A DNA stretch of 64,000 nt, taken from assembly GCF_000203975.2 (NCBI RefSeq), contig NZ_AFCF02000008.1, positions 310,001 to 374,000 on the forward strand, in the 5' to 3' direction. Shown here piece by piece: positions 27,358-63,259 of the stretch. Under the pieces are notes generated by a model, which was not told where the DNA came from, searched no databases, and saw only the letters and a list, made by a program, of their open reading frames with translations. The translations under genes were made by a program, and so were the position numbers. How positions within the stretch are numbered: position 1 is the first letter of the stretch; the number at the start of each line of letters is the position of its first letter. The DNA comes from Leisingera sp. ANG1 (GTDB lineage Bacteria > Pseudomonadota > Alphaproteobacteria > Rhodobacterales > Rhodobacteraceae).

Positions 27358-27432
27358 GGCCCGTTCGTCTATCGGTTAGGACGCCAGGTTTTCAACCTGG
27401 AAAGAGGGGTTCGATTCCCCTACGGGCTGCCA
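27358..27432 (+). tRNA. tRNA-Glu (anticodon UUC)
   Basis: The 75 nt fold as a cloverleaf: acceptor GGCCCGT pairing with ACGGGCT (one G-U), anticodon stem CCAGG/CCTGG with loop TTTTCAA giving anticodon TTC, T-arm GAGGGGTTCGATTCCCCT. The CCA end is encoded. First of two identical copies. Confidence 0.97.
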
Positions 27433-27602: not shown

Positions 27603-27677
27603 GGCCCGTTCGTCTATCGGTTAGGACGCCAGGTTTTCAACCTGGAAAGAGGGGTTCGATTCCCCTACGGGCTGCCA
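27603..27677 (+). tRNA. tRNA-Glu (anticodon UUC), second copy
   Basis: Identical over all 75 nt to the copy 170 bp upstream, with encoded CCA. Identity extends only a few bases into the flanks, so only the gene itself is conserved between the copies. Confidence 0.97.
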
Positions 27678-37531: not shown

Positions 37532-38263
37532 ATGAGCGAGACATATCTCAGCGGCGAGACCACTACCGACAAGACCGCAATCCGCAACGCGGCAACGGTG
37601 ATCGCCATGCGCGGCCGGTTGTCCGATGACCCGCAGGTGCTGATGGGCCAGCGCGGTGCCAAGGCTGCTTTCATGCCGAACAAATTTGTCTTCCCCGGCG
37701 GCGCGGTGGATATGGCGGACGCGGATGTCCCGCTGGCCTCGCCGATCTCCCTGGTCTGCCAAGACCGTTTGGCAGACAAGGCACCCGCGGACGTGCACCA
37801 CGCCCTCGCCGTCGCCGCAGTGCGGGAGCTGTGGGAGGAAACCGGTCTGATCCTGGGTGAGAAAGGCGACTGGCAGGGCGACATCCCCGAAGACTGGCAG
37901 GAGTTTGCGGCTACCGGCCATATCCCCTCTGCCAAGGATATGCAGTTTGTGTTCCGCGCCCTGACCCCGCCGGGCCGCCCGCGCCGCTTTGACGCGCGTT
38001 TCTTCCTGGTCGATGCGGACCAGATCACCGGCGACTTGGACGATTTCTCCCGCGCGGCGGATGAGCTGTCGCACCTGCAATGGATCCCGCTCAGCCAGGT
38101 GCGGGAGTTTGACCTGCCGTTCATCACTGAGGTGGTGCTGGCCGAAGTTACTGCCCGCGTCCGCGACGCGGAGCCGCCGCAAAGCGTGCCCTATTTCCAC
38201 AACAACGACGAGGCCAGCCTCTTCCTGCGCCTCAAGGGCTACCCGATGCCCGCAGACGGGTAA
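37532..38263 (+). CDS. NUDIX hydrolase
   Basis: A 243-residue protein; the start at 37532 (MSETYLSGETTTDK) is 4 bp after the DUF983 stop. The NUDIX box is present but spread: FPGGAVDMADADVPL, then AAVRELWEETGLILG containing REXXEEXG. A longer insert between the glycines and the box fits the NUDT19-like/CoA-type subgroup, but the substrate cannot be read. It ends where the first copy of the triple-hairpin element begins. Confidence 0.9.
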   Translation: MSETYLSGETTTDKTAIRNAATVIAMRGRLSDDPQVLMGQRGAKAAFMPNKFVFPGGAVDMADADVPLASPISLVCQDRLADKAPADVHHALAVAAVRELWEETGLILGEKGDWQGDIPEDWQEFAATGHIPSAKDMQFVFRALTPPGRPRRFDARFFLVDADQITGDLDDFSRAADELSHLQWIPLSQVREFDLPFITEVVLAEVTARVRDAEPPQSVPYFHNNDEASLFLRLKGYPMPADG

Positions 38264-38333
38264 CGTTTCCCAGGCTGGAAACGTCCCGGAAAACACGTGT
38301 TTTCCGAGCCGGAATTATCGCATAATTCCGGCT
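38263..38333. repeat. Triple-hairpin intergenic element, copy 1
   Basis: Three consecutive inverted repeats in 71 bp: ACGTTTCC/GGAAACGT (38263-38284), the perfect 20-bp palindrome CGGAAAACACGTGTTTTCCG (38287-38306), and a 12-bp stem containing GCCGGAATTAT/ATAATTCCGGC (38307-38333). It fills the gap between the NUDIX stop and the convergent EamA stop. A second copy in opposite orientation is at 41368-41438. There are no T runs, so simple intrinsic termination is not the obvious role. Confidence 0.85.
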
Positions 38334-38343
38334 GCCTTGCGCC

Positions 38344-39246
38344 TCAAAGGGCCAGAACCAGCACCAGGATAGACACCACCAAAAGCCCCATGCCCGCCAG
38401 TTCGCGGCCTGTGACATTTTCCTTGAAGAACAGCACAGAGGCCAGCAGCGACAAGAGCAGCTCCACCTGCCCCACTGCCTTCACATAGGCGGCGTTTTGC
38501 AGCGTAAAGGCCCAGAACCAGCAGAACGATCCACCCATGCTGGTCAGCCCGACCCAGACCGCCACTTTGCGCGCCTGCCAAACCCGGGCGATCTCACCCT
38601 TTTCGCGCAGTCCCAGCCAGACAAGCATGAACAGCGTCTGCAGGCTGACCACTGCGGCCAGCGTCACGCCCGCGCGGAACATCGGCTCCAGTTCACCCAG
38701 CTGCAGCGACGCCCCGCGGTAGCTGACCGCGGAAAATGCAAACAGCACACCCGACCCCAGCCCCAGCTGCGAGGCGCGGTTGGTTAGGTGCCGCCACCAG
38801 GGGCCAGCCGTGTCCGGCGTCTTGGACAGCACCAGCACCGCCGTCAGGCCGATCAGGATCGCCGCCCAGCCGCCAAGGCTGACAGGATCGCCCAGCACTG
38901 CCAGCCCGACGATGGCGGTCTGGATCACTTCGGTCTTCTTGAAGGTGATGCCAACTGCGAAATTGCGCTGCTTGAACAAGGCCACCACGCAGACGGTGGC
39001 CAGGATCTGTGCGGTGCCGCCGATTGCGGCAAACATCCAGAATTTCGCGCCCAGTTCCGGCAGGCTCCGCCCCGACACCATCAGATAGGCGGCCAGCCCG
39101 GCCAGGATGAACGGTGCTGAATAGACAAACCGGGCGAAGGTGGCTCCGCCCGGCGACAGCGTCACGCTGCTCAGGACCTTCTGCAGCATGAAGCGCACGG
39201 TCTGAAAGCTGGCGGCGGCTATGGAAACGGGGATCCAGGCAAACAT
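38344..39246 (-). CDS. EamA/DMT-family transporter
   Basis: A 300-residue integral membrane protein with about ten hydrophobic helices and two EamA repeats (VALFKQRNFAVGITFKKTEV, VGQVELLLSLLASVLFFKEN). Drug/metabolite transporters export or import small metabolites; the substrate cannot be inferred. Its stop abuts the triple-hairpin element. Confidence 0.9.
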   Translation of the reverse strand: MFAWIPVSIAAASFQTVRFMLQKVLSSVTLSPGGATFARFVYSAPFILAGLAAYLMVSGRSLPELGAKFWMFAAIGGTAQILATVCVVALFKQRNFAVGITFKKTEVIQTAIVGLAVLGDPVSLGGWAAILIGLTAVLVLSKTPDTAGPWWRHLTNRASQLGLGSGVLFAFSAVSYRGASLQLGELEPMFRAGVTLAAVVSLQTLFMLVWLGLREKGEIARVWQARKVAVWVGLTSMGGSFCWFWAFTLQNAAYVKAVGQVELLLSLLASVLFFKENVTGRELAGMGLLVVSILVLVLAL

Positions 39247-40490: not shown

Positions 40491-41351
40491 ATGATAGAAA
40501 ATATCGACAAACGGGTGCGGGCTGAGCAGTTCCGGCAAAGATTGAACAAGGCCCTGCGCGACAGCGGCCTCAGCCAAAGCGCCCTGGCCCGCGCTGTCGG
40601 GGTGGACCGCTCCACCATCTCGCAGCTGCTGACGGATGAGGGCGCGCGGCTGCCGAACGCCCATGTGGTCGGCGCCTGCGCCGGCGCGCTTGGGGTCTCC
40701 GCCGACTGGCTGCTCAGCCTCTCGGACCGCCCTGAAAGCGCCGCCGAGCTGCTGGCCTCCAGCCTCACCCTCTCCGAGGCCCCGCGCGCGCTGGTCGATG
40801 AAAAGATCTTCGACTGGCACCAGGAGGCCGAAGGCTACAAGATCCGCCACGTCCCCGCCGCGCTCCCCGACATGCTGAAAACCCGGGCGCTGCTGGAATG
40901 GGAATACGCCCCGCACCTGGGCCGCACCGCAGGCCAGGCCATCGGCGCCTCCGAGGACCGCCTCACCTGGATGCGCCAGTCGCCGTCAGATTATGAAATC
41001 GCCCTGCCGCTTTATGAGCTCGACAGCTTTGCCCACGCCGTCGGCTACTACGAGGGCCTGCCACTGGAGATCCGGCTGGAGCAGCTGGACCAGTTCGAAC
41101 GCCTCTGCGAGCAGCTCTACCCCCGCCTGCGCATCTACCTGTTTGATGCCAAGCGGCTTTACTCTTCACCGATCACGATCTTCGGGCCGCTCCTGTGCGT
41201 TTTTTACGCCGGCACCCATTATCTCGCCTTCCGCGACAAGGAGAGGATCGCCACCTTCACCAGCCATTTCGACAACCTGGTGCGCGAGGCCGATATCACC
41301 GCACGGCAATTGCCCGGACGGCTGCGCGCGCTCAGGGCGGCGATTTCCTGA
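40491..41351 (+). CDS. XRE-family transcriptional regulator
   Basis: A 286-residue protein with an N-terminal HTH_3 domain (LRDSGLSQSALARAVGVDRS, TISQLLTDEGARLPNAHVVG) and a long C-terminal domain of unknown fold (LEWEYAPHLGRTAGQAIGAS, ELDSFAHAVGYYEGLPLEIR). The start is uncertain: ATG 40491 gives the best N-terminus, an ATG at 40449 is possible, and neither has a strong ribosome site. It is divergent from the DUF2061-desaturase pair, which it probably regulates. Its 3' side holds the second triple-hairpin element. Confidence 0.82.
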   Translation: MIENIDKRVRAEQFRQRLNKALRDSGLSQSALARAVGVDRSTISQLLTDEGARLPNAHVVGACAGALGVSADWLLSLSDRPESAAELLASSLTLSEAPRALVDEKIFDWHQEAEGYKIRHVPAALPDMLKTRALLEWEYAPHLGRTAGQAIGASEDRLTWMRQSPSDYEIALPLYELDSFAHAVGYYEGLPLEIRLEQLDQFERLCEQLYPRLRIYLFDAKRLYSSPITIFGPLLCVFYAGTHYLAFRDKERIATFTSHFDNLVREADITARQLPGRLRALRAAIS

Positions 41352-41367
41352 AAATAGCAGCAGGGCC

Positions 41368-41438
41368 GCCGGAATTCGGCGCGAATTCCGGCTCGGAAAA
41401 CACGTGTTTTCCGGGACGTTTCCCGCGCCGGGAAACGT
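41368..41438. repeat. Triple-hairpin intergenic element, copy 2 (inverted)
   Basis: The reverse complement of this 71-bp segment matches 38263-38333: same order of hairpins, same 71-bp length. Stem 3 has 11-bp arms (41368-41392), stem 2 is the identical 20-bp palindrome (41394-41413), and stem 1 is ACGTTTCCCG/CGGGAAACGT (41416-41438). In stem 3, two base pairs differ from copy 1 on both arms at once (AT/AT becomes CG/CG), keeping the pairing. It lies between the convergent XRE and SDR genes. Confidence 0.85.
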
Positions 41439-41459
41439 GACCCGCCCGTTCAGCCCTGC

Positions 41460-42233
41460 TTACACCTTCGGATCCGGGTTCTCCGTGTGGCCGTCGACGG
41501 CAATCACCTGCCCCGAAACCAGCCGCGCCGCGTCCGAGCCGAGGAACACCGCCATATTGGCAATGTCGCTGGCATCGACAAACCGCCCCATCGACGTGCC
41601 GGACGCATAGCCCGCATAGACCTCATCCCGGGTCATGCCTTTGGCCGCGGCCTCGCGTTCCAGCACGCCTTCCATCCGCGGGCCTTCCACCGCGCCGGGG
41701 CAGATCACATTGGCGCGGATGCCAAACGGCCCAAGCTCCATCGCCAGCGTCTTCATCAGGCCGATGACCGCCCATTTGGCGGAACAATAAGGCGCCCGGT
41801 TCGGATAGCCGTACTGCCCGGCAGTCGAGGAAGTCACGATGATCGATCCCGCCTTGGCGGCCTTCATCAAAGGTGCTGCGTATTTGGCGGCCAGAAAGCA
41901 GCCCTCCAGGTTGACGCTCACGCATTTGCGCCAGTCCTCCAGCGCAATGTCCTCGATCAGCGCGGTCGGCCCGGCGATGCCTGCATTGGCACAGAGCACA
42001 TCGAGCCCGCCCCAAACGCCAGCGATCTCCGCAAACAGCTCCCTGACACCCGCCTCATCGGTGGCATCCACAGCCGTTGTCCGCCAGCCCTCCGGAACGT
42101 CTGCCAGCGCAACAGCGCTGACATCCGTGACCCAGACCTGAAACCCGGCGCCGGCAAAGCTCTCAGCCATGGCCCGGCCAATTCCAGACCCGCCGGCGGT
42201 GATCAGAACCCGGCGCATCCCTTCAGCGCTCAC
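41460..42233 (-). CDS. Short-chain dehydrogenase/reductase
   Basis: Classical SDR of 257 residues: cofactor motif RRVLITAGGSGIGRAMAESF, structural NAG in DVLCANAGIAG, and the catalytic Ser/Tyr/Lys in IIVTSSTAGQYGYPNRAPYCSAKWA split as SSTAGQYG and YCSAK. Its ATG overlaps the stop of the carnitine dehydrogenase gene by 4 bp, so it is in the carnitine operon. The substrate is not established; a role with a carnitine or hydroxy-acid intermediate is inference. Confidence 0.9.
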   Translation of the reverse strand: MSAEGMRRVLITAGGSGIGRAMAESFAGAGFQVWVTDVSAVALADVPEGWRTTAVDATDEAGVRELFAEIAGVWGGLDVLCANAGIAGPTALIEDIALEDWRKCVSVNLEGCFLAAKYAAPLMKAAKAGSIIVTSSTAGQYGYPNRAPYCSAKWAVIGLMKTLAMELGPFGIRANVICPGAVEGPRMEGVLEREAAAKGMTRDEVYAGYASGTSMGRFVDASDIANMAVFLGSDAARLVSGQVIAVDGHTENPDPKV

Positions 42234-48789: not shown

Positions 48790-48828
48790 TTGGGCCCGGC
48801 ACCGGGCGTTGCCCGGTGCCGGGCCCAA
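48790..48828. terminator. Long perfect hairpin after imuA
   Basis: Two 18-base arms (TTGGGCCCGGCACCGGGC and its exact complement) enclose GTT. It starts 6 bp past the imuA stop. The very stable stem suggests a terminator or transcript stabiliser even without a T run. Confidence 0.7.
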
Positions 48829-50924: not shown

Positions 50925-50960
50925 CTGTCCGAATGTTTCGCGCGCGAAACATTCGGACAG
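50925..50960. repeat. Perfect 36-bp palindrome after the MFS gene
   Basis: CTGTCCGAATGTTTCGCG is followed directly by its own 18-base reverse complement, with no loop. It lies between the MFS stop and metG (210 bp further). As RNA it would form a long hairpin; as DNA it could bind a dimer or extrude a cruciform. No T run follows, so it is not a classic intrinsic terminator. Confidence 0.85.
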
Positions 50961-62262: not shown

Positions 62263-62315
62263 AGCGCCCGCCCCGTGGGGGCGGGACGGGCGCTGCCCGG
62301 CGTGCCGCCGGGCAG
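62263..62315. terminator. Two adjacent GC-rich hairpins between convergent glpD and cobO
   Basis: The first stem (AGCGCCC GCCCC with GGGGC and GGGCGCT) spans about 62263-62294; the second (CTGCCCGGCG / CGCCGGGCAG, TGC loop) spans 62293-62315. They share a few bases, so they may be alternative folds. No T run. They could act as a bidirectional transcription boundary. Confidence 0.5.
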
Positions 62316-62968: not shown

Positions 62969-63033
62969 GGGGGCTCTCCAGCTGTTTGACCCCATGTCTT
63001 GACAAAGAAGCCCGCCATAGCGCAAGGGGGTTC

Positions 63034-63216
63034 AGCTGGTTCCTGTGAAAACAGGCGAAGAGGGAATGTGAAGGCCTTGCCAAGGCTCAAGCACAGCCGC
63101 CCCCGCGACCGTGACCGGATGAGGCCGCCATGCCACTGGGAATACGTCCCGGGAAGGCAGGATGGCCGGCAAGGCCTGAGCGCCTTGGCATCCGCAAGCC
63201 GGGAGACCTGCCAGCT
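63034..63216 (+). ncRNA. Cobalamin riboswitch
   Basis: The terminal helix pairs AGCTGG (63034-63039) with CCAGCT (63211-63216). Inside are the conserved GGGAATGTGAAG-like 5' core, GCCGCCCCCGCGACCGTGA, GGATGAGGCCGCCATGCCAC, and the B12 box AGCCGGGAGACCTGCC (about 63197-63212). It reads toward DUF1636-cobW, 110 bp upstream of DUF1636. Expected to switch those genes off when adenosylcobalamin is plentiful. Confidence 0.93.
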
Positions 63217-63259
63217 AGAGAGAGATCAACGGGCAGACGGGGTGTTCTGCGACCGGGTG

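Follow-up and report, generated by a model that had tools for sequence, protein, structure and literature searches.

Three adjacent hairpins between convergent genes

In the 64,000-nucleotide stretch of the Leisingera sp. ANG1 genome analysed here (contig NZ_AFCF02000008.1, positions 310,001 to 374,000; hereafter the window), a NUDIX-domain gene and an EamA-family transporter gene converge on an array of three adjacent inverted repeats, designated H1, H2 and H3. This array (copy 1, window positions 38263-38333) takes up 71 of the 80 bases that separate the two genes: it starts on the final base of the NUDIX stop codon (TAA, 38261-38263), and the EamA gene has its 3' end at 38344. An initial annotation, made from the sequence alone, had described three inverted repeats packed 0-2 bp apart in an 80-bp gap between convergent genes, together with a second three-part structure in the opposite orientation. 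Hairpin search and folding bore out this description, with two bases between H1 and H2 and none between H2 and H3 in copy 1, and with an inverted copy 2 at 41368-41438, where 108 bases separate a helix-turn-helix gene from a short-chain dehydrogenase gene (Table 1).

The middle palindrome, CGGAAAACACGTGTTTTCCG, is the same in both copies, as annotated, and no match to it at up to three mismatches occurred in 100 dinucleotide-shuffled windows. Aligned head to tail, the two copies differ mainly in the H1 loop and the inner part of H3. Their total length, annotated as identical, is so between the outer bounds (71 bases each) but not in the aligned cores: copy 1, which lacks one base in the first (H1) loop, has a core of 69 bases, and copy 2 one of 70. 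The three hairpins fold on both strands of both copies at -37.3 to -44.7 kcal/mol (z between -4.35 and -6.60, with none of 200 shuffles equally stable), and inspection of the sequence after each copy confirmed the annotated absence of T runs. The window holds no further array with stems of at least 8 bp and hairpins no more than 6 bases apart. One hairpin pair, 7 bases apart, lies at 62267-62315, and very long perfect hairpins that are not of the triple-hairpin family (18-bp and 16-bp stems) lie at 48790-48828 and 50925-50960.

Table 1. Hairpins of the two window copies and the genes that flank them (window coordinates).
Feature	Coordinates	Strand	Remarks
Copy 1 H1	38263..38284	+	ACGTTTCC arms, 6-base loop; shares last base of NUDIX stop codon
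Copy 1 H2	38287..38306	+	20-base perfect palindrome, CACGTG centre
Copy 1 H3	38307..38333	+	CCGGAATTAT-CGC-ATAATTCCGG, plus 1 or 2 more outer pairs
Copy 2 H3	41368..41392	-	Hairpin search and folding
Copy 2 H2	41394..41413	-	Same as copy 1 H2
Copy 2 H1	41416..41438	-	Hairpin search and folding
NUDIX-domain gene	37532..38263	+	PF00293; ends at copy 1
EamA-family transporter gene	38344..39246	-	PF00892; converges on copy 1, 3' end 10 bases from H3
Helix-turn-helix gene	40491..41351	+	PF01381; end 17 bases ahead of copy 2
Short-chain dehydrogenase gene	41460..42218	-	PF13561; converges on copy 2, 3' end 21 bases from array

A dispersed family of arrays in the Leisingera sp. ANG1 genome

The array is a discrete, dispersed Leisingera element of about 70 bases that consists of three adjacent palindromes. 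On contig C1 (1.1 Mb) we found three arrays of at least three adjacent perfect hairpins, whereas each of three order-3 Markov sequences had none. With up to three mismatches allowed, an 18-base core was located at 16 genomic places (reversed control, 0); 14 of the 15 core-pattern loci fetched are multi-hairpin arrays, the 16th place having turned up later with a covariance model. That model (R1), built from 13 copies and run at E ≤ 1 against the 4.59-Mb genome, yielded 51 strand-wise matches that collapse to 28 places: 16 full copies (69-70 bases), five longer ones (106-119 bases), in which by eye a longer centre has hairpins on either side, and seven partial, weak or odd ones (C16:165390, C16:117011, C6:13691, C17:392700, C1:771323, C20:244238, with Ns, and C1:545786), which were kept in the counts of gene context and stop distance given below. 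Pattern and covariance-model searches also recovered copies in related genomes, and the suggestion of a dispersed element akin to repetitive extragenic palindromes (REPs) has held up, with 28 places in this genome and matches in 20 of the 21 genomes of the genus.

Across the 13 aligned copies, 94.5% of cells are paired (89.0% in shuffles) and 17 cells are changed on both sides (5.3 in shuffles). GCG predominates among left loops (H1 in 51 of 89 short copies) and CGC among right loops (H3 in 59 of 89), so that the unit has dyad symmetry. Its ends are sharp: the 16 flanking bases of the 28 copies are no more similar to one another than expected by chance or than bases further out, and none of the 378 pairs reaches 12 of 16 matching bases on either side. 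A five-part array at C19:193533 (locus L074, about 2000-2150) has a last arm that is partly tandem-repeated. Adjacent pairs of AT-rich palindromes with TTCGAA-like cores, which the R1 model does not match, lie on C1 at 84859-84905 and 109943-109987 and are perhaps further members of a wider hairpin class.

Arrays often lie close behind stop codons

Using gene calls from a home-made caller trained on Leisingera, we found that all 28 places fall between called genes and that 16 of them lie within 12 bases of a stop codon (6.5% under random placement, P = 1e-12). Random positions drawn inside the same gaps gave a mean of 9.0 copies within that distance and at most 15 in 2000 trials. Convergent gaps hold 11 of the 28 copies (14% expected), tandem gaps 16 (57% expected) and divergent gaps one (28% expected). 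When orthologs across the genus are collapsed, counting only the 89 exact 70-base copies among 110 items, 28 independent sites remain, 13 convergent, 14 tandem and one divergent; all three annotated plasmid hits lie between convergent genes. Among 33 loci in 14 other genera, 18 are tandem, 10 convergent, one divergent and four within called genes (perhaps caller errors), with a stop codon within 12 bases at 17. Flanking gene orientation is therefore non-random, and the initial annotation's emphasis on two convergent 3' ends stands as an enrichment; the commonest trait is instead closeness to a stop codon, half of the independent sites being tandem.

This distribution bears on the possibility, which we consider less likely than not but a serious rival, that the array is a selfish or once-mobile REP-like element with no useful role and with self-mending palindromes. 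Such an element would have spread as a precise 70-base unit, as the sharp ends and the chance-level similarity of the flanks suggest, and purging of copies in genes and promoters would have left those downstream of genes; the arrays lie nearer to stop codons, however, than promoter avoidance alone requires.

Another alternative is an intrinsic terminator proper that would work in the H3-to-H1 direction, RNA polymerase being released by the middle stem and the T-rich H1 arm after it. In several copies a crude scan for terminators picked out H2 with CGTTTTCC behind it, and the H3-to-H1 orientation is seen at nine of the 14 independent tandem sites. This split (9 to 5) does not reach significance (P = 0.42), TTT is all that many copies have at that spot, TTTT follows H2 inside the array only in some copies and in one direction, and the array has no T run after it, all of which makes this alternative very improbable. 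An ordinary terminator was rejected, given the lack of a U tract and the loss of the raw tandem bias (32 opposite, 14 same) when orthologs were collapsed to 9 and 5. The crude scan put ordinary terminators at 149 of 587 background 3' ends; element-bearing gaps were too few to show whether such terminators are scarcer in them.

Pairing is maintained on both strands

To 37 mapped loci we applied an ortholog stem test that counted 26 pairs, 10 being left out for other length or truncation and one skipped. Orthologous stems contain 16 compensated pairs, compared with a mean of 2.5 and a maximum of 7 under a random-substitution null, and 26 broken pairs, compared with a mean of 73 and a minimum of 61; a further 24 pairs are unpaired in the Leisingera sp. 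ANG1 copy and paired in the relative. Divergence between orthologs amounts to 7.1% in stems, 13.7% in unpaired bases and 10.1% in flanks. Watson-Crick pairing is complete at all 28 pairs in 41 of 89 copies. The departures from it comprise 32 G-U and 44 A-C pairs overall, and 24 G-U and 17 A-C pairs at tandem sites in the mRNA-sense frame. Because G-U is not favoured over A-C, pairing is equally good on both strands, and the arrays are maintained as double-strand palindromes; selection on the mRNA-sense RNA strand alone is unsupported by this test.

Equal pairing on both strands would follow from two-sided reading, from a role at the DNA level or from template-switch repair of palindromes, known as quasipalindrome correction. 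The last of these accords with a selfish origin, under which template switching within the palindrome and gene conversion between copies, not selection, would keep the pairing, and the equal frequency of G-U and A-C departures is in line with it. In the second, a nucleoid or topology protein such as gyrase or an IHF-like (integration host factor-like) protein would make use of the palindromes between transcription units, whether these take the form of cruciforms, of hairpins in single strands or of binding sites in duplex DNA. Besides the equal strands and the many fully Watson-Crick copies, the enrichment in convergent gaps speaks for such a site, as does the binding of gyrase and IHF by REPs in other bacteria (PMC5082802). 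We nevertheless judge it quite improbable, since stem sequence varies by copy and by genus while structure stays constant, which makes a sequence-specific protein unlikely, and since the tight distance to stop codons is left unexplained.

Inheritance, decay and replacement at orthologous sites

Arrays are largely inherited in place. Among 45 copies fetched from relatives, which are largely high-scoring and biased toward conserved copies, 39 have a flank in common with a Leisingera sp. ANG1 copy and 35 have both. The copy 1 site, compared in 22 rows from 21 genomes, has all three hairpins in nine rows (some with single changes) and an altered array in two (G016, G006); four rows retain H3 only, two have lost the segment from the H1 loop to the last H3 arm, and five have remnants or nothing. 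A deletion running from GTTTYCC in H1 to GTTTTCC in H2 would account for the rows with H3 alone. At the copy 2 site the array is found in five rows, interrupted in one (G010) and missing from 16. The interrupting insertion, about 1.2 kb long and located in H2 (G010 C1 3907793-3908955; loci L228, L239), indicates that arrays can be insertion targets. In G019, L. thetidis to judge by its plasmid, about 16 bases from the 3' end of the NUDIX gene accompany the copy 2 array, and copy 2 therefore descends from copy 1. A third site (C19:284512) has a decayed array in G007 and G017. No clean empty site with target duplication was found at the three sites compared across the genus; what they held in place of the array were remnants, different hairpins or other sequence.

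These histories cut both ways for a selfish origin. The copying of the NUDIX 3' end from the first site into the G019 copy 2, and the ability of an orthologous middle hairpin to switch to a family type seen elsewhere (L205 versus C19:723996), speak for it; against it, most fetched copies are orthologously placed and old-looking, and the Leisingera sp. ANG1 genome has no Y1 transposase or RAYT (REP-associated tyrosine transposase).

Slots without an array often hold an unrelated hairpin. Of the 16 rows without the element at the copy 2 site, 13 have a different perfect stem of at least 8 bp, against a background of 127 of 444, a loose comparison because gap lengths of 44-210 bases are set against a fixed 90; at the third site, such stems occur in three of the five rows taken as element-free (eight relatives' rows, the unclear G001 left out). 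The copy 2-less gaps (orthologs of 41352-41459; L218 in G018, L224 in G013, L225 in G001, L227 in G015, L230 in G009) carry other GC-rich hairpins. Some of these are common to several genomes and GGTGGGCGGAAYCGCCCACC-like, and may represent another repeat family.

Distribution in the genus, the family and beyond

At E ≤ 0.01, the model matched 20 of 21 genus genomes (Leisingera sp. ANG1 included), four of 16 other genomes of the family and none of 24 outside it. At E ≤ 1e-4, matches were obtained in 18 of 197 other Rhodobacteraceae genera sampled, with different stem sequences. At this threshold a class-wide draw gave no match in 384 other genomes, with about 13 candidates per genome scored, which makes it a weak test of absence outside the family. 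A search with a 29-base pattern in one genome per GTDB species returned 10 stretches, seven in Leisingera and three in a single Rhodobacteraceae metagenome-assembled genome. Plasmid matches were seen in L. thetidis and Leisingera sp. S132, with a shorter one in Ruegeria pomeroyi; L. aquaemixtae and L. aquimarina are further species with arrays. On the Ruegeria pomeroyi DSS-3 megaplasmid (L306, 1999-2055), a relative with two hairpins occupies the space between a helix-turn-helix gene and the gene of a GlxA-family regulator convergent with it.

Hairpin arrays form a wider class in the Rhodobacteraceae, with stem sequences that vary by genus, and the Leisingera element is one of its members. In other genera we observed CTGCAG-centred triples (G031), doubles (G022, G025) and a centre with four flanking hairpins (G029), all with different stems, as well as triples in G126, G181, G235, G064, G148 and others; by eye, a GGAA/TTCC-like motif is common to many arms. 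The Y1 transposase profile (PF01797), which does not tell RAYT and IS200 apart, had no match in the Leisingera sp. ANG1 genome and matched six of 21 genus genomes (G003, G004, G006, G009, G010, G015); it is present in the array-rich G010 and G004 and absent from the array-rich G007, G012, G014, G017 and G019. The unit thus occupies 28 places in a genome without a Y1 transposase; a lost transposase, or one of those in the six relatives, could conceivably have spread it.

Elsewhere in the window, a cobalamin riboswitch (RF00174, 94 bits) lies on the + strand at 63020-63229, and two tRNA genes of equal Rfam score (59.7 bits) lie at 27358-27429 and 27603-27674, with 173 bases between them.

A possible bidirectional block at transcript 3' ends

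We tentatively read the array as a bidirectional 3'-end hairpin block that is REP-like in action, a reading we regard as close to an even call. We infer that transcripts run past the stop codon from either side and into the element, where they would form stable stem-loops; these would halt 3'-to-5' exonucleases and may slow RNA polymerase, with whatever help to termination this might bring, and each of the two convergent mRNAs would thereby acquire, with no need of a U tract, an end that is defined and protected. Such an action has precedents, in that REPs in 3' untranslated regions (UTRs) block 3'-5' decay (PMC5082802) and segments of operons in E. coli are protected by stem-loops (PMC5927463). 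We favour a 3'-end block because of the position of the arrays, their inheritance in place, the upkeep of their pairing and the unrelated hairpins in array-less slots, although this support is tempered because G-U and A-C departures are similar in number.

Several observations weigh against it. There is no excess of G-U over A-C, contrary to what selection on RNA from one strand would lead one to expect; some tandem copies lie more than 50 bases from the stop codon; an ordinary terminator shares the gap with some copies (e.g. C1:600494, C1:181190, C16:165390); and at the copy 1 site the array is broken or lost in many relatives. Functionless repeats, moreover, are likewise expected to persist best behind genes.

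A broader proposal, which we regard as unlikely, extends the 3'-end block to the whole class: the modular, dyad-symmetric arrays of the Rhodobacteraceae, built of two, three or more hairpin units with genus-specific stems and a conserved architecture, would be interchangeable two-way transcript-end cassettes placed right behind stop codons, spread without a known REP transposase and palindromic because both strands are read. Transcript ending without a U tract is often poorly understood in high-GC alphaproteobacteria, and the full, shortened and absent states at one site across 21 genomes make the question of host part versus parasite testable.

Comparison with known systems

The arrays match no known structured RNA: six array loci had no Rfam match at E of 1 or better, and copies 1 and 2 had none at the gathering score. 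Intrinsic terminators likewise place a stable stem-loop after the stop codon but differ in their U tract, which does not follow the Leisingera arrays; at some sites both are present. The protective 3' stem-loops of E. coli mRNAs (PMC5927463) resemble the arrays as a model of action, being stable stem-loops that are located at transcript ends and lack a U tract; they are, however, unique structures, whereas the Leisingera arrays are a dispersed repeat.

The REPs of E. coli and Pseudomonas, including BIMEs (bacterial interspersed mosaic elements) and the REPINs (REP doublets forming hairpins) that occur with RAYT, are many short intergenic palindromes, often at 3' ends, that form RNA stem-loops (PMC3733652), and in its 28 dispersed intergenic palindromic copies the Leisingera element is like them. 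They differ in being GTAG- or CGTC-tagged, where the Leisingera arrays lack an unpaired end tag, and in having one hairpin where the arrays have three fixed hairpins in a genome without Y1_Tnp. By eye, CGTC occurs in 3 of the 13 aligned copies, overlapping the paired 3' H1 arm, and GTAG in one, within H3. For this genome a RAYT-type REP was rejected on both defining features, the Y1 transposase and the tag.

Closest to the arrays is Br-REP1 of Bradyrhizobium, described as a set of three palindromes where the 3'-UTRs of convergent genes overlap, with sequencing reads that suggest complementary small RNAs at its sites (PMC5082802, the one paper retrieved under the name Br-REP1). Like Br-REP1, the Leisingera arrays comprise three adjacent palindromes at the 3' ends of convergent genes; Br-REP1 is also dispersed in intergenic regions, with an abundance that differs strongly among species, and its central unit, CCGGAATCTCGAGATTCCGG, resembles Leisingera H3 by eye. 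The CCGGAATCTCGAGATTCCGG consensus at up to two mismatches had no site in the Leisingera sp. ANG1 genome and one site each in three of 142 class genomes. Br-REP1 further belongs to another order and family of bacteria, and its central palindrome stands alone at about 200 sites, while the usual Leisingera form is the three-part unit. Among open-licence papers, we found none naming the Leisingera element, so that, within these searches, its label as undescribed applies to the sequence but not to the architecture, already known from Br-REP1. We class the Leisingera array among the dispersed REP-like palindromes, as a new variant of composite build whose nearest published counterpart is Br-REP1.
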